A stretch of 42,213 nt of DNA from a bacterium ADurb.Bin243 (lineage in GTDB: Bacteria > Muiribacteriota > UBA9980). The position numbers were made by a program, and so were the translations under genes. How positions within the stretch are numbered: the stretch's first letter is position 1; each line of letters begins with the position of its first letter. Shown here piece by piece: positions 4,814 to 16,265 of the stretch. Location: positions 1-42,213 of the forward strand of contig MWBZ01000005.1 in NCBI GenBank assembly GCA_002069765.1, given 5' to 3'. The notes below the pieces were generated by a model that was not told the origin of the DNA, made no database searches, and worked only from the letters and a program-made list of their open reading frames with translations.

Positions 4814-6055
4814 GTGGTAAAGATAATTTCTAAAAAAATCACTGAATATAAAACAGTCATAGGCATTATGACCGGAACTTCTCTCGACGGCGTAGATACG
4901 CTCGTTACGCGCATAAAAGGCCGCGGCGTTTCAACGCGCCACGAAAATTTATGCTTTAAGGTGTTTGAAATACCATCCGCCCTCAAAGAACGCATGCGCT
5001 CTATTATGAGAGATAAAACCGCCGCGCTGGAAGAGATATGCCGCATCAATTTCGAGCTGGCGTCTCTTTACGCCGGCTGTATAAAAAAAATCTGCCGCGC
5101 TTCGGGCGTTGGAATCGAAGATATAGATTTTGCCGGCATTTCAGGCCAGACGTTTTTTCACGTGCCCGGCGAGGCCACTTTACAACTCGGATCGGGTTCG
5201 GCGCTTTCGGGCATTTTAGATTTGCCCGTAGTGTGGGATTTCAGGGCCGCCGACATAGCCGCCGGAGGTCAGGGGGCCCCGCTTGTGCCGTATCTGGATT
5301 TCGTTCTTTTTTCGGCGCTTAAAAGAGATATCATAACGCTTAATATAGGCGGAATATCGAATATAACGCATATACCCGCGGCCGGCGGTTTTCACGCGGT
5401 TAAAGCTTTCGACTGCGGGCCGGGCAATATGATAATAGATAAAATGGTCATCGAAATGACCGGGGGCCGTAAGAAATACGATAAAGACGCCCTGATCGCG
5501 CGTTGCGGAAAATCGGCGCCGGAGCTTTTTAATATGATGAAATCCCATCCGTACCTGCAAAAAGCGCCGCCTAAAAGCACCGGCCGCGAGGCCTTCGGCG
5601 ACGGCTACGCCAGAGGGCTTATCGACTTCTGCAAAACCGCGGGCATAAGCTTTCCCGCTATGATTAGAACCGCCGCCGAATTTACGGCTTACTGCGTTAT
5701 AGAGGATATAAAAAAACATATCGCGCCCGGCTTCGCCGCTTCGGGCGTTAAAAAAACGCCCGACCGGCGGCCCCTGCTCGTATGCGCCGGCGGCGGAGCC
5801 GATAATCCCCTGATATTTGAAGCGCTTAAAAAAGGCGCCGCGGACGCCGGAATCGAAACCGTCCACTCTAATTCCATGGGCGTGGATTCGAAATCAAAAG
5901 AAGCTTTGCTGATAGCCGTTCTGGCCAATGAAACTATTTACGGCCACGCTTCAAACGCGCCGTCGGCTACCGGCGCGAAAAAAAGCGTCGTGTGCGGCAG
6001 CGTGGCATATCAACCGCGTCGGCCCCATCCCAAAAATGCCCGGAGGATAAAGTAA
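4814..6055 (+). CDS. anmK: Anhydro-N-acetylmuramic acid kinase
   Basis: A protein of 413 aa; the family is usually near 370, with the surplus at both ends. The ATP-site signature 'GIMTGTSLDGVD' is at about residues 17-28. Further family blocks are 'SGQTFFH', 'LQLGSGSAL', 'VVWDFRAADIAAGGQGAPLVPYLD', 'NIGGISNIT', 'FDCGPGNMIID' and the C-terminal 'NAPSATGA'. The enzyme phosphorylates 1,6-anhydro-MurNAc with opening of the anhydro ring, returning cell-wall sugar to MurNAc-6-P. The start is GTG 4814; the first internal ATG lies inside the signature, so GTG must be used or the frame extended. There is no ribosome binding site, and the promoter position fits a leaderless message. An ion-channel gene begins one base after the stop codon. 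Confidence 0.93.
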   Translation: MVKIISKKITEYKTVIGIMTGTSLDGVDTLVTRIKGRGVSTRHENLCFKVFEIPSALKERMRSIMRDKTAALEEICRINFELASLYAGCIKKICRASGVGIEDIDFAGISGQTFFHVPGEATLQLGSGSALSGILDLPVVWDFRAADIAAGGQGAPLVPYLDFVLFSALKRDIITLNIGGISNITHIPAAGGFHAVKAFDCGPGNMIIDKMVIEMTGGRKKYDKDALIARCGKSAPELFNMMKSHPYLQKAPPKSTGREAFGDGYARGLIDFCKTAGISFPAMIRTAAEFTAYCVIEDIKKHIAPGFAASGVKKTPDRRPLLVCAGGGADNPLIFEALKKGAADAGIETVHSNSMGVDSKSKEALLIAVLANETIYGHASNAPSATGAKKSVVCGSVAYQPRRPHPKNARRIK

Positions 6056-6056
6056 A

Positions 6057-7115
6057 TTGAATAAATATAACAGGCTTTTAATTATATTCGTGTTTTCTAT
6101 ATTATTATTTTTTATAATATTCAACCGCGCTCTGGACAGCGTTCCCGTTTTTTCCGACACGCTCAACTTAACCTCCGATACGGCTTATAACGAGGCCATG
6201 AAAAAAGACCGCGCGTTTTTAAAAAACCTCGGCACTAACGAAGTAAAGGTCGGCGCATACGTTCTCAATTATAAAAATCTCAATATAAACAACGGCACGT
6301 GCACGATCGATTTTTACTTCTGGCTCATCTGGAGCAACCCCGAACTAGACCCGCTTCAATTCGAGGTAATGAACGCGGCCGTAGATTATAAAGACCTTAT
6401 CTCCGACGAAACCGTCGAAGTGGAAGGCAGGACATTTAAATGGGTGAATTACAGAATCGTCGCCACCACGTCCAACGACTTTAATTTTAAAAATTATCCG
6501 CTCGATAAACAGGCCGTCAATATCGAAATAGAAGATAAAGAACTGGATATAAGCAAGATGAATTACGTTATTTCTACCTATGAAAACTCCATCGATTCAA
6601 GAGCTAAAATCCAGGGCTGGGAAATACGCGATAAAGACTGCCACATAACGACCCACAAATACGACACCAACTTCGGATTTACGCCCGAAAACGCAGCCAG
6701 CAGCGATTATTCCAGATACGTTTTGAAAACCGTAATATCGCGCCCTTATTTTTCCTCGATGCTCAAGGTAATGCTGCCTTTAACCGTTATTCTATCGCTT
6801 TCGTTCATATCTTTTTTCCTGAGCCTCGATAAATATTCCCAGCGAATATCGCTTGCCGTTTCAACGGTCTATACCTCGGTCGCCTTTCACATCAACCTTT
6901 CGGCAGCTATCCCCCAGGTAAGCTACCTTACCCTCGCCGACCGGCTTATGATCTCCATCTACTTCATGCTCGCCGTGAGCATAGTCTCGATCGTCGCCAT
7001 GACGGTGCTCGTCGATAAGAAAAAAGACGAACTCGCTTTGAAAATAAACAGAATTTTAATAATTCTATTTCCCGTTTTATGCTTCGTAGTGATTTCATCA
7101 CAATTTGGAAAATAA
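6057..7115 (+). CDS. Pentameric ligand-gated ion channel (prokaryotic Cys-loop-receptor homologue)
   Basis: A protein of 352 aa. Residues 6-23 are a hydrophobic signal or anchor. Residues about 60-228 form a beta-sandwich ligand-binding domain with 'VKVGAYVLNYKNLNI', 'TIDFYFWLIWSNPEL' (83-97, equivalent to the W-x-D-P-x-L strand) and 'NYPLDKQAVNIEIED' (146-160, the shortened Cys-loop region without the cysteine pair, as in GLIC and ELIC). Four membrane helices follow: M1 about 234-255 with the conserved proline P241, M2 about 262-285, M3 about 294-319 after the typical 'PQVSYLTLADRLM' loop, and M4 about 331-348. Start TTG 6057 has GGAGG at 6042-6046. It begins one base after the anmK stop, so the two are almost certainly co-transcribed. 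The ligand and ion are unknown. Confidence 0.85.
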   Translation: MNKYNRLLIIFVFSILLFFIIFNRALDSVPVFSDTLNLTSDTAYNEAMKKDRAFLKNLGTNEVKVGAYVLNYKNLNINNGTCTIDFYFWLIWSNPELDPLQFEVMNAAVDYKDLISDETVEVEGRTFKWVNYRIVATTSNDFNFKNYPLDKQAVNIEIEDKELDISKMNYVISTYENSIDSRAKIQGWEIRDKDCHITTHKYDTNFGFTPENAASSDYSRYVLKTVISRPYFSSMLKVMLPLTVILSLSFISFFLSLDKYSQRISLAVSTVYTSVAFHINLSAAIPQVSYLTLADRLMISIYFMLAVSIVSIVAMTVLVDKKKDELALKINRILIILFPVLCFVVISSQFGK

Positions 7116-7537
7116 TTATTGCTTTTACTTTTCTATTGCTATAATTATTGCCGTTACGATTATTTTTTTATTTTAACGCTAAACTATAAACTATATTCGC
7201 TTTCGATGATAAGGGAAGGCTAGAGGCCAAAGGCCCCTGCCTTCCCTTAAAATCCCTTCCAACCCCGGATTTGCCTGACGCTTTATTTTTGCGGGGTGCC
7301 GGCTTTTCTGCCGGCGCTTTAATTCAGTTACTCTATTTTTGCTAATAGCCTTATTTTTTTAGCGTTCTGTCGTCTATCTTCTATTTTCTTTCATCGCTCT
7401 TCTTTCTGTTTTATTTTTAAATTTTCTTCTTTTTCTTTTTTTGCAGACGCGCGCTTCGCTCGCGCCTGCGCAGCAATAATGGCTGATAGGCAATTAGGCT
7501 TTATAGTTTTATGACAAGCCTTTTTTATGGTTGCCGC
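7116..7537. other. Gene-free stretch between the ion channel and the giant lipoprotein gene
   Basis: No coding region was found. It holds, in order: AT-rich sequence to 7206, the left copy of a long inverted repeat (7207-7327), a pyrimidine-rich tract (about 7370-7442), and a GC-rich hairpin (7443-7469, GCAG...CTGC around alternating CG). The hairpin is followed on the minus strand by A's rather than T's, so it is not a classical terminator of the lipoprotein gene. It may still stall polymerase or protect the 3' end. Confidence 0.6.
7207..7327 (+). repeat. Left copy of a 121-bp inverted repeat bounding the lipoprotein gene
   Basis: This 121-base block aligns without gaps to the reverse complement of 14151-14271; I count 13 mismatches, about 89% identity. 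It contains two stem-loops: AAGGGAAGGC...GCCTTCCCTT (7211-7248) with an inner GAGGCC/GGCCCC pairing, and GCCGGC-TTTTCT-GCCGGC near 7298-7315. In both copies a pyrimidine-rich tract follows on the inner side, containing similar 'TTCTTTCTGTTTT' and 'TTTTCTTCTTTT' segments, so the related region is nearer 235 bp. The first hairpin may also end transcription of the anmK-channel operon. Confidence 0.9.
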
Positions 7538-10500
7538 TTACGGCGCCGCCGTAACAGAAACCGTAAATGTTCTAACGCCTGTCGTTTTGCCTGCTTCCGT
7601 CGTCGTTACAATGATCGTAAGGGTCGAAGCGGCTCCAATTGTATAATCATTACCGCTAGTATATGCGACGTCGTTTATTTTGATTGTAGATGAAGCGCTT
7701 CCGGCATCGGTCACGGTGAATTTTATTTTGTCCGCTGTGACTGTTACCCATCCTGTTACCGCGCCTGTTGTATCAGTTGCTCCGGCCGCGGGAATGGCTA
7801 CGTTTGTGATTCCGCCAACCTGGTTTGTGCTGCCAGCCTCTAATACTATGGAGCCTGGCGCCGATGAGTACTCGGGCGCTATATCCGGCGGAAGAAGCAC
7901 AATGCCGGCGAATTTAACTATCTTGTTGGTACCGTCTAGTATTTCATACAAGGCGATACATTCACCGGCCGCCGCGTCTGTTATATTTGATCCTGACACA
8001 TATGCTGTCGTGCTGATCATGCTTACATCGTCATTGATAAGAGGAATCATGGTCGGGAAGGCCTGTTTGACGTACTTCAGGCTGTTGCTCCCAGCGCTGT
8101 ATGTTAACTTTACGGACCCGGGTACTGAGCCCGGAGCTATAACGAGCCCTGTTATGGGATCGGCCGGCGCAAGAAGAATGTCGACGAATTTAACCACAAG
8201 ATTGCTCGCGTTTATCTCATATATCCCGATATGTTGCGTAGGCGCGGCTCCGGTAATATTATCGCCGGAAGTATAAGCCGCTCCTATCGCGCTCGCGTCG
8301 GCGCCTAACAATGGCGTGGTGAACGCGCCTGCCTGCTTGACATATTTCAGGCTGTTGCCCGCTCCTGCCGCATAAGTTACTTTTACGGACCCGAACACGG
8401 TGCCCGGAGCAGCCGTATAACCCGTTATGGCTGGCGCTGGAGGGGCTATCGTAGTGAACTTGACGCCCTGCGCGGTGCTTATAGTGTTTCTGGATGAATC
8501 ATATACTTTGTTGGCTTGAAGCTCTATATAGTATGACTGGTTATTCTTCAAATCAGCGCCGAAGGTTACCGTAAACTTCCTGTTGGCCGAATCATAGGCA
8601 ACAGTGAAATGAACATTATCGGCGACGGCGCCTTCTGTAAGCGCCGTGCCGGTATTGTCGTTTCCTTCATATACTTTTATTATGCCTGTGGGCGAGGCTT
8701 CCATAGCTGTCGAAGCCGTATAAAGAGCTTCCGAAAATGTGAGCGTCGGAGCGATATTTAAAACTATTCCCGCGGCATTGTTGGCGGGCGAATATACCGG
8801 TGACGATGGCGGAGTAATATCCGGATAATAAATGGTATATGTCGCGCTTGCCGTCGCGGAATCGCTCATGCCGTCTTTAAAGGCTATCGCTTTTACGGTC
8901 GTGGTCGAGTTTATGTTAAAAGGCGCTGTATAAACCGTTCCGTTTGCGGCAGCGGGTTCTGAACCGTTTGTCGTGTAATATATGACGGCGTCGGGCGTCG
9001 CGCAGATGATCGTCACTGTCTTGTAAAAAGCGGCCATGCTTGAAGGAGCTAAAACGGGCGTCGCGACCTGCTTATTATCGACTATCGGCACCGCTAGGCA
9101 AAGCGATGAATCGCCATAAGCGTTATACGGATAAATCAGAAAATGTGTCGCGCCCGCCGGAACCGAAGTGTTTATGGCAACCTCCTGAGAATTTGCCGCC
9201 GCGCCTGAGATTGTGTAAATGGCCGTCGCGCTGCCGGTCAATTTATTCAAAACATCCTGCCCCCAATAAATCTTGTAGCCGGTTATGCCGGTCGATGGGT
9301 TCGACGCGGTCCAATTAATGGTGCCCGAAACTTCAGACGAATCCATGTCGGCATCTGTAAAGGAGCCTGCCGTCGGCAGTACCGTGGGAATCGCTTTTAC
9401 AATATCTTTTATAGGCACCGCCAGGCGCGCTGCCGAATCGCCCTTGGCGCCATAAGGATATATTAAAAAACAGTCTGCGCCTTCGGGAATCGAAGTGTTT
9501 ATGGCAATCGTCTTTAAATTTGTCGATGCGCCCGTCACTGTATAAACGGCATCGGGGTTACCTGATAATTTAGTTCCCGAATTAACTATTGAATTCTTGG
9601 CTCCCCAATAGATATTATAACCGATGACGCCTTCCGCGGGATCTACCGCGGCCCATGTCAAATTACCCGCGATCTTTTTAGCGTTATAATCGGTGTCGGT
9701 GAAACTGCCGGATGCAGGAACTTTTATTCTCGGAGCATTAATGTCAAATGTCACCGTGGCATTGTACGCTCCCGTGGTAGAATTTGCCATCCATTTCGGC
9801 GTAGTCCAGCCGGTTTTATCTGCGGCGTAGTGAAATATTTCGTTGTCAAGGTAGAATGGACGTATACCATAGTTTAGCGGCGCATTGCCTTCAAAATAAA
9901 CATTCAATAAGTTTTTGCAATTACCGAATGAATAATTGCCTAAGGTTGTTAAGCTGGCCGGAAAAGAGATGTCATACAAAGATGAACAATAATTGAACGC
10001 ATTTGCGCCAATGCTCGTAATGCCGTCGAGAAAAACAAGTCTTTTTATGCCGGAGCATCCATAAAACGCGTTATCGCCAATACTCTTAATGCTTCTGGGA
10101 AATACGACGTCCGTAATGGCGATTTTATTTACAAACGCCGAGTCTCCTATGGCGACTACCGGTTTGCCATCTATTGTATCGGGTATCACTAACTGAATGT
10201 CCATTCCTATCTGGTCTACATAGCCTGTAATTGTTATGCCGTCGCCGTTGTCGTTGTAAATACAATTTTTAAAAGCTTTTATATCGGTTATATTCACCGC
10301 GAGACATGAGGTAGAACTGCCGTTAGCGTTAAATGAATAAATTAAAAAATGCGTGGCGCCCGCCGGCAGCGCCGTATTGGCAGCTACAATCTGTAATGTT
10401 TTATCCGCGCCCGAAACCGTATAAACTTCCGAGGTATTGTCCGCTAATTTAGTCGTAGCGTTTTGCCCCCAAAAAATCTTATAGCCCGTTATATCGGTTA

Positions 10501-13500
10501 CGGGACTTGCCGGCGTCCAGGTGATGATACCAAAAATTTCCGTCGAATCCATGTCGCTATCTATAAAAGTTCCCGATGTCGGAATCGCCATCGGGGCTGA
10601 TTTATCGACGATGGCTACCGCAAGGGCAGCCGCAGAATTGCCGTTAGCGTTAAATGAATAAATTAAAAAATGCGTTGCGCCCGCCGGCAGAGAGGTATTG
10701 GCCGCAACCGTCTGAGAGGCCGCAGCTGCGCCTGAAACCGTATAAACTTCCGAAGTATTGCCTGTTAGTTTAGTGGTGGCATTTTCTCCCCAATAAATTT
10801 TATATCCGGTTATGTCGATCGCGGGACTGGCCGGCGTCCAGGTGATGTTACCCGAAACTTCCATTGAATCTATGTCGGCATCCGTAAAAGTTCCCGATGT
10901 TGGGATTGCCGCCGGTATAGAATTATCGGTGATGCCTACCGCGAGAGCAGCCGCAGAATTGCCGTTAGCGTTAAATGAATAAATTAAAAAATGCGTTGCG
11001 CCCGCCGGCAGAGCGGTATTGGCCGCGACCGTCTGAGAGGCCGCAGCTGCGCCTGAAACCGTATAAACTTCCGAGGTGTTGCCCGATAATATAGTCGTCG
11101 CATTCTGTCCCCAGTATATCTTGTAGCCGGATATGCCGGTTGCCGGATTTGCCGGCGTCCATGTAATTTCGCCCGAAATCCTTGAAGCGTTAATATCCGA
11201 GTCGGTGAAAGCGCCGGATGTTGCAAGTATAGTTGGAGAAGATACCGTCAAATCGAGTATCGGCACGGCCAGGCACAGTGAAGAATTGCCGCTGGCGTTG
11301 TATGGATAAATCAAGAAATGTGTGGCGCCTGCAGGAAGAGCGGTATTGACCGCGACCGTCTGAGAGGCCGCAGCTGCGCCTGAAACCGTATAAACTTCCG
11401 AGGTATTGCCCGATAATATAGTCGTTGCATCATGTCCAAAATATATCTTGTAGCCGTATATGCTTTCTGTTGTAGCCGACGGGTTCCAGGTAATATTACC
11501 TGATATCTTAGAGACATTAATATCGGTGTCCGTAAACCTGCCATTCGTCGGAAGCACTGTAGGGATAGGCTTGACGATATCTTTTATGGCAACCGCGCAG
11601 CGCGCCGCCGAATCGCCGTTAGCGTCAAAAGAATAAATCAAGAAACATTTAGCGCCCTCCGGAATTGAAGTGTTTATGGGAACCTTCTGAGACGTTGCCG
11701 CCGCGCCCGCCACTGTATAAAGAATTTCCGCATTGTCGGATAATTTATCTCCTGTTCTGTTTGAGTCAGCTACACGCATGTCCTTGCCCCAATAGATATG
11801 ATATCCGAGAATGCCTTCCGCTGGATCTATAGCGGTCCAAGAGATAGTTCCAGATATTTTTTTTGCGTTATAATCGGTGTCTTTAAAACTGCCGGAATTC
11901 GGGATCCTTATTTTTGAAGAATTAATATCATATGATGCCGCGGGCTGGTTGTTTGGCCGTGTAGTCCAGCCTTTTTTATTTGCCAGATAGTAAAATATAA
12001 CTCTAGCGCCAAAATTATAGTTGCCTGATGTATTTGTAAATGTTGGAATGTCGCCTTCAAAATAAACGTTTCTAAAATTAGACAATCCATCACCCATGCT
12101 ATTGACACTGGCCGGAATAGTTATGTCATACATAGACGAGCAACTCCCAAAAGCATTGCTACCAATACTATTAACTTTGCCTGGAATAATAATCTTTTTT
12201 AGTCCGGTGCATGAAAAAAATGAATGATTGCCGATGCTCGTGAGATTTTCTGGTAAAGTCACGCTTGTCAAGTTGGGGCATCTTGAAAATGCAGAATTAC
12301 CAATACTTGTAAGGCTATCAGGCAAAATGATGTTTTTCAGGCTGGTGCAACCTGAAAATGCAGAAAGATCAATATTTGTAATGTTTTTTGATAAAGTGAC
12401 GCTTTCTAATGCTTGGCAATTAAAAAATGCGATTGATTGAATACTGGTAACGCTGTCTGGCATGACTATGCTTGTTAAATTTGATGTACAAAATGCGCCG
12501 TTTCCTATGGTGACAACAGGCTTGCCGTCGATTGTGTCGGGTATTGTAACATTAACGTCAGTTCCTCTGTAATATGTAATGGTTATGCCGTCGGCTTTAT
12601 TTATGTAAACAAAATCCGATCCAGATGAAGCGGGGAGCTTAATTGATAAATTCAGGCAGGCGGCTGGCGAAGCTACCGATCCGGATTTAAAGGCCGCGGC
12701 TTTTATCTGCGCGCTCATGCTTATTGAAAATGGCGTTTCGTATTTGATTCCAAAGGATTCGGAGGGAGACGAGCCGTCGAGGGTATAATAAATCACCGCG
12801 CCTGCTGTGTTAGTGCTCATACTGATGGTTTGAGCACTGCTATATTCGCCGTCCTTAATGTTGAATACGGGAGTATCGTTGATAGATGCCGCCGCAATGC
12901 CCGTTACGGCGTCCTTGTTCGTCGATGCAGTGGAACTGCCGTTGACCACGGTAGTGCCGCCGGCCGTCGAGAGTTTTAACTCGGTCGGTATTAAATTTTG
13001 AGTAATGATAGTTGAAACGCTCTGATCATCGCTTTGGGCTATGAGGCGCGAATATGTGTTAAGAGCTTCAGAAGCGTTCTGGACTGGTCCCTGAAGTATA
13101 TCGGATTTTAAGGTATCGCTTACATTCGATGCCGCCAAAATAGCTAACGCTCTTACGGCGCTTGCTACCTGGGCTACATTCTCGGCGCCGCCGGATTCGG
13201 ATTCGATCTTTTTTTGAAACGCGTTATCGGTTGAAAACGACTTTGAAACTGTCTTGCCCGCCTGTACCTCGGACGTCGAGACCGAAAAGAACGGTTCGGC
13301 CGGATCTTTATCGAGGCCTTTTTCCATCGCGAAAAGCGCTTTGGCGGTGGATTCGAACGACACGTCGACGTCGGTTATTTTCACCGAATCCATAGCCGTG
13401 GAATCAGGAATTTCGGTCGCTTTAGGCATTCTGCCCAGAAGGCATTTATAGATCTGAAGGCCTTTACTGCCGTCCGCGGTCTTCAATCCGATCACGAGCA

Positions 13501-13864
13501 TAATGGTTTTTCCGGCATTCGCCCGGATATCCACCTGCACGGTAAAAGTTCCGTTAGCGGCTATAGAACCCGTGCCTACGGAATTTCCGGTCGCGCAGTC
13601 TATCACGTCTATATAATTTTTGGAGGCGTCGAAAGCTATTAATCTTAATACTGCGCTATTTGCGGCCGCGTTTAAAAAGCCCTCGGCAGTATCTGCAGGG
13701 TCTAAAATACTGCCGGAAATCTGGAGATTCATCACTCCTGCGGGCGTATTCGCCGTAATTTCGCTGTCTTCATCCGTGCCCAAACAGCCCGTGAAAAAAG
13801 AAGCGCACGCTATTAAAATAACCAAAACCATCCAATTTCCGAACTTGGCGTTGTGACTTATCAT
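7538..13864 (-). CDS. Giant surface lipoprotein with BspA-type leucine-rich repeats, Fn3-like modules and Ig-like domains
   Basis: Using ATG 13864 (AGGGGG site seven bases upstream) the product is about 2108 aa; the open frame runs 48 codons further but without a credible start. Residues 12-27 are a lipoprotein signal ending FFTGC, with C27 lipidated. In approximate residue order: chitobiase/HEX-C-type 'IYYTLDGSSPS' domain (330-408); BspA/TpLRR repeats of the 'L.SI.LP..LTSIG..AF..C' type (421-606); five Fn3-like modules of about 105 aa (653-1195) carrying 'GYKIYWG' and 'AGATHFLIYSFNANG'; a second leucine-rich block (1203-1330); two more Fn3-like modules (1376-1600); a second chitobiase-like domain (1603-1678); an SbsA-type Ig-like domain (1680-1806); two repeats with 'NSLKYVKQA' (1808-1991); and a C-terminal beta domain. 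It probably acts as an adhesin or surface binder. It lies between two inverted repeats. Confidence 0.85.
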   Translation of the reverse strand: MISHNAKFGNWMVLVILIACASFFTGCLGTDEDSEITANTPAGVMNLQISGSILDPADTAEGFLNAAANSAVLRLIAFDASKNYIDVIDCATGNSVGTGSIAANGTFTVQVDIRANAGKTIMLVIGLKTADGSKGLQIYKCLLGRMPKATEIPDSTAMDSVKITDVDVSFESTAKALFAMEKGLDKDPAEPFFSVSTSEVQAGKTVSKSFSTDNAFQKKIESESGGAENVAQVASAVRALAILAASNVSDTLKSDILQGPVQNASEALNTYSRLIAQSDDQSVSTIITQNLIPTELKLSTAGGTTVVNGSSTASTNKDAVTGIAAASINDTPVFNIKDGEYSSAQTISMSTNTAGAVIYYTLDGSSPSESFGIKYETPFSISMSAQIKAAAFKSGSVASPAACLNLSIKLPASSGSDFVYINKADGITITYYRGTDVNVTIPDTIDGKPVVTIGNGAFCTSNLTSIVMPDSVTSIQSIAFFNCQALESVTLSKNITNIDLSAFSGCTSLKNIILPDSLTSIGNSAFSRCPNLTSVTLPENLTSIGNHSFFSCTGLKKIIIPGKVNSIGSNAFGSCSSMYDITIPASVNSMGDGLSNFRNVYFEGDIPTFTNTSGNYNFGARVIFYYLANKKGWTTRPNNQPAASYDINSSKIRIPNSGSFKDTDYNAKKISGTISWTAIDPAEGILGYHIYWGKDMRVADSNRTGDKLSDNAEILYTVAGAAATSQKVPINTSIPEGAKCFLIYSFDANGDSAARCAVAIKDIVKPIPTVLPTNGRFTDTDINVSKISGNITWNPSATTESIYGYKIYFGHDATTILSGNTSEVYTVSGAAAASQTVAVNTALPAGATHFLIYPYNASGNSSLCLAVPILDLTVSSPTILATSGAFTDSDINASRISGEITWTPANPATGISGYKIYWGQNATTILSGNTSEVYTVSGAAAASQTVAANTALPAGATHFLIYSFNANGNSAAALAVGITDNSIPAAIPTSGTFTDADIDSMEVSGNITWTPASPAIDITGYKIYWGENATTKLTGNTSEVYTVSGAAAASQTVAANTSLPAGATHFLIYSFNANGNSAAALAVAIVDKSAPMAIPTSGTFIDSDMDSTEIFGIITWTPASPVTDITGYKIFWGQNATTKLADNTSEVYTVSGADKTLQIVAANTALPAGATHFLIYSFNANGSSTSCLAVNITDIKAFKNCIYNDNGDGITITGYVDQIGMDIQLVIPDTIDGKPVVAIGDSAFVNKIAITDVVFPRSIKSIGDNAFYGCSGIKRLVFLDGITSIGANAFNYCSSLYDISFPASLTTLGNYSFGNCKNLLNVYFEGNAPLNYGIRPFYLDNEIFHYAADKTGWTTPKWMANSTTGAYNATVTFDINAPRIKVPASGSFTDTDYNAKKIAGNLTWAAVDPAEGVIGYNIYWGAKNSIVNSGTKLSGNPDAVYTVTGASTNLKTIAINTSIPEGADCFLIYPYGAKGDSAARLAVPIKDIVKAIPTVLPTAGSFTDADMDSSEVSGTINWTASNPSTGITGYKIYWGQDVLNKLTGSATAIYTISGAAANSQEVAINTSVPAGATHFLIYPYNAYGDSSLCLAVPIVDNKQVATPVLAPSSMAAFYKTVTIICATPDAVIYYTTNGSEPAAANGTVYTAPFNINSTTTVKAIAFKDGMSDSATASATYTIYYPDITPPSSPVYSPANNAAGIVLNIAPTLTFSEALYTASTAMEASPTGIIKVYEGNDNTGTALTEGAVADNVHFTVAYDSANRKFTVTFGADLKNNQSYYIELQANKVYDSSRNTISTAQGVKFTTIAPPAPAITGYTAAPGTVFGSVKVTYAAGAGNSLKYVKQAGAFTTPLLGADASAIGAAYTSGDNITGAAPTQHIGIYEINASNLVVKFVDILLAPADPITGLVIAPGSVPGSVKLTYSAGSNSLKYVKQAFPTMIPLINDDVSMISTTAYVSGSNITDAAAGECIALYEILDGTNKIVKFAGIVLLPPDIAPEYSSAPGSIVLEAGSTNQVGGITNVAIPAAGATDTTGAVTGWVTVTADKIKFTVTDAGSASSTIKINDVAYTSGNDYTIGAASTLTIIVTTTEAGKTTGVRTFTVSVTAAP
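10626..11083 (-). repeat. Near-identical tandem copies within the lipoprotein gene
   Basis: Positions 10626-10762 and 10947-11083 are 137 bases each and differ at only 4 positions by my count, at an offset of 321 bases. A third, shorter copy of the same segment occurs at about 11338-11425 (offset 327). These encode the second half of successive Fn3-like modules. Identity this high at the DNA level points to recent module duplication or ongoing gene conversion. Confidence 0.88.
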
Positions 13865-13908
13865 TGTAATCCCCCTGCAATTTAATCTAGTATTAATATA
13901 TTGGGACG

Positions 13909-13938
13909 AGTATATCATTATATTGTAAATTCCGTCAA
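13909..13938 (-). promoter_or_regulatory. Sigma-70-type promoter of the giant lipoprotein gene
   Basis: On the minus strand TTGACG (13938-13933) is followed by an 18-base spacer and TATACT (13914-13909). The predicted start near 13902 leaves a leader of about 38 bases before ATG 13864, including the AGGGGG ribosome site. The promoter lies inside the inverted-repeat-bounded block, so it would move with the gene if the block inverted or transposed. Confidence 0.6.
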
Positions 13939-14150
13939 CTAATTTCATAAATGTTTTCAAGAAATTTTCAGGTTGATTACATCGCGATCCGACGTTTTTC
14001 TTGAGCAATTTTTACACGGAATTAAAGCTACGCGATAAAAAAATAAAAAAAAAGAAATAAAAAAAAAGATAAAAGGAAAAGAAGAAAATAAAAAAGAAAA
14101 CAGAAAGAACTTGAAAAAGAAATTCGAAGTGATTGGCTGAAAGGCCACAT

Positions 14151-14271
14151 CTAAATTAAAGCGCCGGCAGAAAAGCAGGCACTTAACATTAATAAAGCGT
14201 CAGGCGATTCAGGGGTTGGAAGGGTTTTTAAGGGAAGGTAGGGGCCTTTGGCCTCTAGCCTTCCCTTATCA
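14151..14271 (-). repeat. Right copy of the 121-bp inverted repeat
   Basis: The reverse complement of this block matches 7207-7327 without gaps, with about 13 of 121 mismatches. The outermost 32 bases are identical and most changes cluster near the middle. The polypurine tract at 14034-14129 is the inner extension, equivalent to the pyrimidine tract beside the left copy. One base change (GCAGGC for GCCGGC) weakens the second hairpin. Confidence 0.9.
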
Positions 14272-14417: not shown

Positions 14418-16265
14418 ATGAGAAAGGGTTTGAGACTATTCGTATTTTTACTTATCGCAATTTTTCTTTTCAGTTCGCCTTACGGTGAAGCGTGTGCGCA
14501 GGGCGCATCGAAAACCGCTTCGGCCGCGGCCGTTAAATCGGCAAAGAAGGGCGTTAAAAAACAGCCTAAAAAATCGCCGGTGGCGGCTAAAAGTTCGAAG
14601 CTTCCGGCGGAAGTGATAAATGTCGCTGAAGAGCAGAAAAAGAATCTTGCCGAAGAAAAGGGCAAGGTTTATGATCTCGGCAATATTGTTGTTCATGGCG
14701 AGGATAAGACCAAAATAAAAGACGCCAGCAAGAAGAAGACTGCTTATCTTACGCCGGACACCGATTCGGACACGGGCGAAAAAAAAGGCAGCGCGGCGTT
14801 TGTAGCCGGCGCAGTTCCTACGGCTGCGGGCGGCGGCGAGGTTACCAATACTATGAAGGCGTTTTTCGAAGGCGGCGCGGGCAGTGATTCTACGGCCAGC
14901 GCGGCGGGGATGTTGACGTTTGAAAGGAACGCTCCGGCGGACGGTTTAAAATCAAGGTCTACCGTCGGCGCGCGCGGCGAGAAAACGGGCGGTTACAGAT
15001 ATAAAAGCGATTCGAGCGCGCTCAACGTCAATTACAGATATGAGAACGAAAAAGCTTCGGATTCGTCCACTTACGCGGAGATCAACTATGACAAAACGGA
15101 CCGCAATCTTCCGGGGTTCGACCGGTTCGAGAATAATTTCACGAACGTCCAGAACGGCGTTATGAGTCTTGACGCGAGATACTCTGAAAATTCGCAGCGC
15201 TTTAGAGCCGGCGTAAAAAAAGCGTCGAGTGAATTTAAGGTGAACGCTCTACCGGTGGATGAAAATTATGATTCATCGATACTATCGTTAGGATATTCAA
15301 AAGATATAATATACGACCACAGCGATCTTTCGCTTCCGCTGACGCTCGAGTTCAACTTTCAGAACGACGCCCTGGATGTCAGATCGGCCCAGTCTTCATC
15401 GGCTGTATCCACGCAATTCGGCGCTAACGCGGAAAAAGCGCTCAGCGAAAAGACGATGCTGCAGTTTGCGCCGCAGGTATATAAAAACGGCGAGAACAGC
15501 GCTAAGATAGGCGGCAGCGTTTCTTTCATATTAAAGGAAAACAAGGGGCCGGACGATAAATTCAAGGCCAGGTATATGATAACGGGCGGCCGGCAGGCGA
15601 AAAAATACGACACCGCGGATTTTTTATTTTCTGATGAAAATGCCGTTATCTGGGCAAAAGACAATGCGGGCGCGAACCGTTTTGACGGAAAGACTTATGA
15701 AAACGACGAAAAGTTCATTCAGTTTTCGGCGGATACCGATCTTGGCGAAGACACTAAAGCCAGCATTTCGTTTAAAAATTCCAAAAGCGACGGGTTATTA
15801 TATTTAAGCGATTTAAATGGCGTCGATTCGAGGTTCGCCTTTAATTCTTTCGCGTCGGGCGCGAGCGTAAACAGGATAAATTTAAAAGCGGAGCATAAGC
15901 TGGACACGGGATTGACGGCGGACGCCGCGGTCGAGACGGTGAAAATAACCGACAGTGTGAATGATTTAATGCCGTACGTGCCGAAATATAAGTATGATCT
16001 GGGTTTGAGTTATAAGCATGAAAACGGGCTTTTTACGAGGTTCAGCTATAAGATAAAAGACGCGATGGATACTTCGAGAAATCCGGCGGCTAATGTAAAA
16101 GTTGATCGTTTCGCGACGGCCGGCATCTATGCGGATAAAAATTTCATCGATAATGGAAAAATTTATTTTAAGGCCGATAATATATTTAACGCCGATTTAA
16201 AGTTACGGCCGGGTTATAGTTACAAAGCGAGAACCTTCGGCATAGGCGTGAATTATATATATTAA
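14418..16265 (+). CDS. Outer-membrane beta-barrel, probable TonB-dependent transporter without a recognisable plug
   Basis: A protein of 615 aa. Residues 1-28 are a signal peptide ending in 'ACAQ'. A Lys/Ala-rich linker leads to 'VYDLGNIVVHGED' (84-96), which looks like the TonB-box start of TonB-dependent receptors ('DLGEIVVTG'). The usual plug domain of about 130 residues is not recognisable. From about residue 140 the sequence alternates like antiparallel barrel strands, ending '...FGIGVNYIY' with the aromatic C-terminal residue used for barrel assembly. Start ATG 14418 has GAGGGG just upstream. exbB, exbD and tonB follow directly, so this barrel is very likely energised by that complex. 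The substrate cannot be told from sequence. Confidence 0.75.
   Translation: MRKGLRLFVFLLIAIFLFSSPYGEACAQGASKTASAAAVKSAKKGVKKQPKKSPVAAKSSKLPAEVINVAEEQKKNLAEEKGKVYDLGNIVVHGEDKTKIKDASKKKTAYLTPDTDSDTGEKKGSAAFVAGAVPTAAGGGEVTNTMKAFFEGGAGSDSTASAAGMLTFERNAPADGLKSRSTVGARGEKTGGYRYKSDSSALNVNYRYENEKASDSSTYAEINYDKTDRNLPGFDRFENNFTNVQNGVMSLDARYSENSQRFRAGVKKASSEFKVNALPVDENYDSSILSLGYSKDIIYDHSDLSLPLTLEFNFQNDALDVRSAQSSSAVSTQFGANAEKALSEKTMLQFAPQVYKNGENSAKIGGSVSFILKENKGPDDKFKARYMITGGRQAKKYDTADFLFSDENAVIWAKDNAGANRFDGKTYENDEKFIQFSADTDLGEDTKASISFKNSKSDGLLYLSDLNGVDSRFAFNSFASGASVNRINLKAEHKLDTGLTADAAVETVKITDSVNDLMPYVPKYKYDLGLSYKHENGLFTRFSYKIKDAMDTSRNPAANVKVDRFATAGIYADKNFIDNGKIYFKADNIFNADLKLRPGYSYKARTFGIGVNYIY

Follow-up and report, generated by a model that had tools for sequence, protein, structure and literature searches.

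The 42,213-nucleotide stretch analysed here (the window) contains a giant lipoprotein gene enclosed by two inverted sequence blocks, which raises the question of whether gene and blocks form one mobile or invertible unit, or whether the blocks came to lie on either side of the gene independently. The original prediction, made from the sequence, offered three readings: a mobile or invertible cassette acted on in trans, an insulated gene with matching terminator-like ends, or two members of an extragenic repeat family. In a repeat search, 7207-7327 and 14151-14271 came out as inverted copies of each other, 121 nt long without gaps, 89% complementary and with 6823 nt between them, and the outermost 32 bases, read from the sequence, are identical in the left and right blocks, both as described at the outset. 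A 25-nt probe from the outer end, allowing up to 3 mismatches, matches just these two blocks in the window, with no match in shuffled sequences. The sole long ORF between the arms is indeed that of the lipoprotein, and no transposase or integrase lies there. The claim of two shared hairpins holds for hairpin 1, which is highly stable in both blocks (fold z-scores of -2.9 to -4.9 for both strands of both blocks), and only in part for hairpin 2, which is intact in the left block but weakened in the right one. Similarly, the inner pyrimidine tracts said to be related are 73-88% alike in short pieces only, and hairpin 3 occurs in the left copy only. The features of the region are as follows.

4814-6055: anmK, upstream of the channel gene
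6057-7115, plus strand: pentameric ligand-gated channel homologue, upstream neighbour
7207-7327, plus strand: left copy, repeat end block, outer end at 7207 (family match; RNA-model score 151 bits)
7210-7249, plus strand: left-hand hairpin 1, with its purine arm at 7211-7219 (AAGGGAAGG) and its pyrimidine arm at 7240-7248
7253-7260, plus strand: mirror box TCCCTTCC, proposed third strand (triplex scan match at 7211; arm-box statistics)
7273-7285, plus strand: conserved box GCCTGACGCTTTA, found in all four species
7298-7315, plus strand: hairpin 2, GCCGGC-loop-GCCGGC (folding)
7328-7442, plus strand: pyrimidine-rich tract, present in most copies
7443-7469, plus strand: hairpin 3 (GCAGACGCGCGC...), then conserved GCAGCAATAATGGC (sequence, copy comparison)
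7538-14008, minus strand: giant lipoprotein ORF, ATG form 13864-7538 (2108 aa), a neighbour and not part of the repeat
13909-13938, minus strand: promoter-like site of the lipoprotein gene, TTGACG-18-TATACT, a consensus match only, outside the repeat
14151-14271, minus strand: right copy, repeat end block with its outer end at 14271, shared in position with the sister species
14218-14225, minus strand: mirror box of the right copy, ACCCTTCC, with a single A opposite an arm A
14418-16265, plus strand: conserved downstream neighbour, a 615-aa protein without a Pfam or NCBIfam match; each of the four genus members has an orthologue

The third of the three readings proved right: BLAST and a covariance model built from 58 copies both revealed many dispersed copies of the block, scattered singly over the contigs of its own genome (G000), a draft of 317 contigs (96% complete, approx. 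5 Mb). BLAST detected at least 40 full copies with a common outer boundary in this genome. The covariance model gave 87 matches there, 92 in the nearest relative, a sister species (G001), and 34 and 108 in two further species of the genus (G002 and G003, respectively), some of these being antisense matches of the palindrome; at least 54 copies in the own genome are high-scoring. The outer boundary is sharp and mostly features a T run followed by TGATAAGGGAAGG. Copies are intergenic and of mixed orientation, with upstream genes pointing away from the repeat in 26 cases and towards it in 20 according to simple ORF calls. The repeat was found only in this genus of Candidatus Wallbacteria (the group name borne by relatives of the channel); 33 further genomes from the phylum gave no copy, and the copies in G002 and G003 are diverged. 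An Rfam scan of the region gave no match, and viral contigs scanned with the hairpin pattern yielded none.

That the 7.06-kb block should still be one unit, with inverted ends and the lipoprotein as cargo, inverting or moving by means of an enzyme supplied in trans, is very improbable. Its outward-facing geometry recurs in the complete elements of G002 and G003 (see below), the outer 32 bases of its arms are identical, and the orthologous gap in G002 lacks the block. Nevertheless, about 54 good copies lie singly across many contigs, and for 54 copies in 5 Mb chance predicts approximately four pairs of neighbours no more than 7.07 kb apart, and four are seen (three direct, one inverted). An outward-facing neighbour within this distance is expected about once by chance (P of about 0.63). 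The arms are not especially close kin either: the left arm ties as the nearest relative of the right arm, whereas the right arm ranks only 13th among relatives of the left, with twelve closer. No target-site duplication is visible by eye at the window block, which is some 10 times longer than a typical complete element, and the recombinase expected inside or beside the repeats of an invertible cassette is absent, the flanking genes encoding the channel homologue and the 615-aa protein. Moreover, the sister species already has the right copy at the same site, with a different gene behind it. Pairing around the lipoprotein gene is most likely a coincidence, and nothing shows the repeat moving or flipping the variable gene that it borders. 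The notion of an insulated gene with terminator-like ends fares no better, as a scan for intrinsic terminators gave no such site at either end. The cassette reading gives way to that of a dispersed family of repeats whose triplex-type ends covary.

The lipoprotein contains BspA-type leucine-rich repeat (LRR), fn3, CHB_HEX_C (chitobiase C-terminal) and SbsC C-terminal domains, and its gene is convergent with that of the channel homologue, itself located 3′ of anmK. The position of the channel gene directly 3′ of anmK recurs in relatives (L053-L055). In G002, the orthologue of the gene at 14418 comes immediately after the channel gene, and the gap between the two holds neither repeat nor lipoprotein gene. 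G001 has the right copy at this position too, oriented alike, but the gene behind it is another one; the G001 channel gene is found on a separate contig, without the left copy. In G003, where a contig ends, a triplex-type end lies 228 bp upstream of the orthologue of the 14418 gene and faces it. Searches for the lipoprotein gave no orthologue in G001 or G002; in G003 they gave a relative of the N-terminal part only (49% over residues 60-445), and the surrounding 6 kb that were read contain no repeat end. The lipoprotein is lineage-specific, and the nearest relatives of this genome have no orthologue at the site, so the repeats border a variable region. The right copy is thus old, and it is the gene behind it that has changed. 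No obvious enrichment of repeats beside giant surface-protein genes emerged from ORF sizes at the repeat loci.

Repeat positions are for the most part fixed between the two closest species. The orthologous flank in G001 is readable for 23 copies of the own genome, and the repeat is at the same site in 21 of these, one of them interrupted by foreign DNA; the two exceptions without a repeat in G001 are the left copy of the window and one other. On the tail (inner) side, 8 of 12 testable sites are collinear with G001 and 4 are not, including the right copy of the window, a figure without a matched control set, which leaves the association with rearrangement anecdotal. Similarity between the two species is no higher for copies that share a site than for those that do not (same-site copies rank 4 to 18 of 18), a result compatible either with an old burst shortly before the two species diverged or with gene conversion within the family. 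No clean empty site indicative of recent movement was found in G001.

The repeat begins with hairpin 1, a short A-rich spacer, a pyrimidine box, GCCTGACGCTTTA, hairpin 2 and CTTTAAT; further in lie the pyrimidine tract, then hairpin 3, and last a tail that is also conserved. The pyrimidine box is the mirror of the hairpin's own pyrimidine arm. Within hairpin 1, the stem pair 15-35 is GC in 34 copies, CG in 11, UA in 5 and AU in 3, with 20 sequences changed on both sides, a count that no shuffle equals. Mixed pairs at this position, the one covarying position of the hairpin, occur in 5 of 58 copies, among them the left copy of the window, where a T-G mispair at 7220/7239 looks as if the outer 32 bases derived from another copy type. 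In G002 and G003 the hairpins are altered (e.g. AAGGGGAGG, AGGGGGAAGGGAAAGG, AAGGGAGGGAG), and so are the boxes (CCCCTCC, CCCCCTTCCCTATCC, CCCTCCCTC).

Clues on the significance of the box were obtained from its relation to the hairpin. A strict triplex scan, requiring a purine hairpin of 8 bp accompanied by a mirror box that matches it, gave 38 matches in the 543 kb of own-genome loci covered. Each of these is an end of this family, and shuffled sequences gave none. With one box taken per distinct purine arm (22 arms), the purine-motif rule (G*GC, A*AT, T*AT) is obeyed at 92% of positions, compared to 75% (maximum 82%) for boxes swapped between arms in 2000 permutations; the register was re-optimised for the swapped boxes and set from G positions only in both cases, and as copies share ancestry the permutation p-values overstate independence and are indicative only. 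A pyrimidine-motif triplex (T*AT, C+*GC) was also considered and rejected, with a poorer fit of 82% of positions in the same 22 arms (swapped boxes 67%, maximum 74%) and the A letters of the box left unexplained. It is these A letters that cause the difference between the two rules: all 25 are opposite an arm A and none opposite a G, against 67% for swapped boxes, and on the complementary strand they give T*AT triads, which are permitted in an antiparallel purine motif. Of 102 arm/box pairs, 76 have a mirror run that is better than the antiparallel Watson-Crick run, and 3 have one that is worse. Three adjacent strips on one strand thus obey triplex rules, as in an intrastrand triplex. The loop to the third strip is short, but purine arm and partner are separated by 16-21 nt in G000 and G001, more than the 1-6 nt that the ITxF search rule allows for both loops; in G003 the hairpin runs beyond the triplex part. 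According to Holder et al. (PMC4666352), purine-motif triplexes cannot form in RNA, and the fit to this motif would therefore point to DNA.

Two such ends also occur together. Outward-facing end pairs numbered ten in 20 loci of G002 (0.42-0.92 kb in length) and ten in 40 loci of G003 (0.59-0.83 kb); shuffled sequences of either species yielded no ends. A complete element in these species accordingly measures 0.4-0.9 kb and has two inverted ends; its two arms often differ in sequence, each box matching its own arm. In the own genome one complete element was seen (L152, with counterpart L126 in G001), and most copies have one recognisable end. The best explanation for the blocks around the lipoprotein gene, with a probability of about 0.75, is that they are independent single-end copies of a genus-specific, dispersed, non-coding repeat with putative triplex-type ends, a reading drawn from sequence comparison. 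The complete element, of 0.4-0.9 kb and with two inverted ends, would be MITE- or REPIN-like. One DNA strand is predicted to fold such that the purine arm of the hairpin is also bound by the adjacent purine strip, giving an intrastrand purine-motif triplex. This triplex may form in the cell when the DNA is single-stranded, and an enzyme that acts in trans to mobilise the element may recognise its ends. The repeats may also attract insertions and rearrangements, which would account for the changing gene neighbours, including the lipoprotein.

It is tempting to speculate that selection keeps intrastrand triplexes as mobile-element ends, their strips matched by the purine-motif rule and read by a transposase or a replication-coupled enzyme, but this is put forward tentatively, as a possibility for which the odds are below even. 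Whether triplex motifs are selected or merely foldable has been a question since BoxC/PIT were described. Within the single genus studied here the three strips have remained matched while the motif diverged, the substitution involved, A opposite A, being the one that tells the purine from the pyrimidine motif. Such three-strip covariation in diverged copies constitutes evolutionary evidence of a kind for which no published case was found in the literature searched; third-strand covariation turned up just in a riboswitch paper (SAM-V) and a review, and the text of PMC4666352 contains neither "covari" nor "compensat". If the idea is true, this would be the first mobile-type element with triplex ends, as far as we found. 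As for the starting observation, the cassette is replaced by an ordinary chance pairing.

Two other accounts of the structure were weighed against a triplex in DNA. The mirror box might reflect shared ancestry and a low-complexity pyrimidine tract rather than selection for a triplex. The boxes are C-rich and the subfamilies related, and part of the match does come free, as seen from the 75% reached in permutations; yet the match of 92% in 22 distinct arms exceeds every permutation, the A letters of the box stand solely opposite arm A letters, mirror runs outdo antiparallel Watson-Crick runs far more often than the reverse (76 vs 3 of 102 pairs), and the motif appears nowhere else in 543 kb, which makes this account unlikely. 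Still less probable is that the structure works as RNA, be it a small RNA, a cis-regulator or a terminator. Both strands have strong hairpins, and unpaired segments such as GCCTGACGCTTTA are conserved, which would suit such a role. Against this, orientation relative to flanking genes is mixed (26 vs 20 for upstream genes), neither block has terminator-like sites or an Rfam match, and substitutions follow the purine motif, which according to PMC4666352 cannot form in RNA.

Among known systems, the triplex-type ends may be compared to the BoxC/PIT/TM-ECO motifs (Holder et al. 2015, PMC4666352), which have been linked to gene-content change nearby. Like these, they are intergenic, present in many copies and without strand bias, comprise three purine/pyrimidine strips that could fold as a triplex of one strand, with a short TTA-like loop to the third strip, and also occur as inverted pairs. 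The strip order is R'-R-Y (the type 1 order of PMC4666352) as opposed to Y-R-R' in TM-ECO, and the hairpin is longer than the triplex part, so that the inner loop exceeds the 1-6 nt limit of BoxC/PIT. Unlike in the BoxC/PIT description, the motif is the end of an element of 0.4-0.9 kb, and its strips differ between species with matching kept. With REPINs (REP doublets; PMC3116915) the repeat shares pairs of inverted hairpin ends, intergenic location, dispersal and a probably non-autonomous nature, but its spacer is far longer, and the RAYT (Y1_Tnp, PF01797) that defines REPINs is absent from the own genome (96% complete draft). The REPIN-type inverted doublet is encountered in G002 and G003 and is rare in G000 (L152). 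MITEs are likewise short, non-coding and present at many sites with inverted ends, whereas the ends here are alike in structure more than in sequence. No target-site duplication was visible by eye in six G002 elements or at the window block, and a search of the own genome for an autonomous partner through Y1_Tnp found none. The best reading is that of a BoxC/PIT-like triplex repeat within a MITE- or REPIN-like element, filed as a variant form and a member of neither BoxC/PIT/TM-ECO nor REPINs.

Four group II intron copies were found in the own genome by means of their own sequence, three of them exactly after hairpin 1 and the fourth 3′ of a terminator hairpin behind a ribosomal S9-like gene (named from sequence reading alone). 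The complete intron, at L140:3463-5355 on contig C28, encodes a group II maturase and has hairpin 1 on its 5′ side and the third strip, AATCCCTTCC, on its 3′ side; the orthologous G001 copy (L129) is intron-free. In G002, one intron lies directly after hairpin 3 of the same repeat family. The RF00029 search of the own genome gave no match despite the complete intron being present, and is uninformative. The hairpin is in use as a landing site for group II introns. Group IIC introns are known to insert after stem-loops such as terminators and attC (PMC7923331), and the insertion directly after a stem-loop seen here matches this behaviour. In the present case the stem-loop is part of a dispersed repeat, and insertion parts the hairpin from its third strip.

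Other rearrangements were noted at individual copies. In G001, foreign DNA with the possible start of an insertion-sequence gene cuts a repeat inside hairpin 1 (L160:1785-1951), suggesting that the hairpin of this copy draws in other elements. In G000, a single repeat at L153:7417 joins two gene blocks that G001 has on separate contigs (L134 and L167), one of which adjoins a repeat in the opposite orientation. A second repeat, AGCAGGGGCCAGA...TCTGGCGCCCTGC, is absent from the window and occurs 29 times in the loci examined (in the own genome L102, L105, L142, L145, L158 and others); it is approx. 190 bp in length, forms a long hairpin, is at times in tandem and often lies 3′ of the first repeat.
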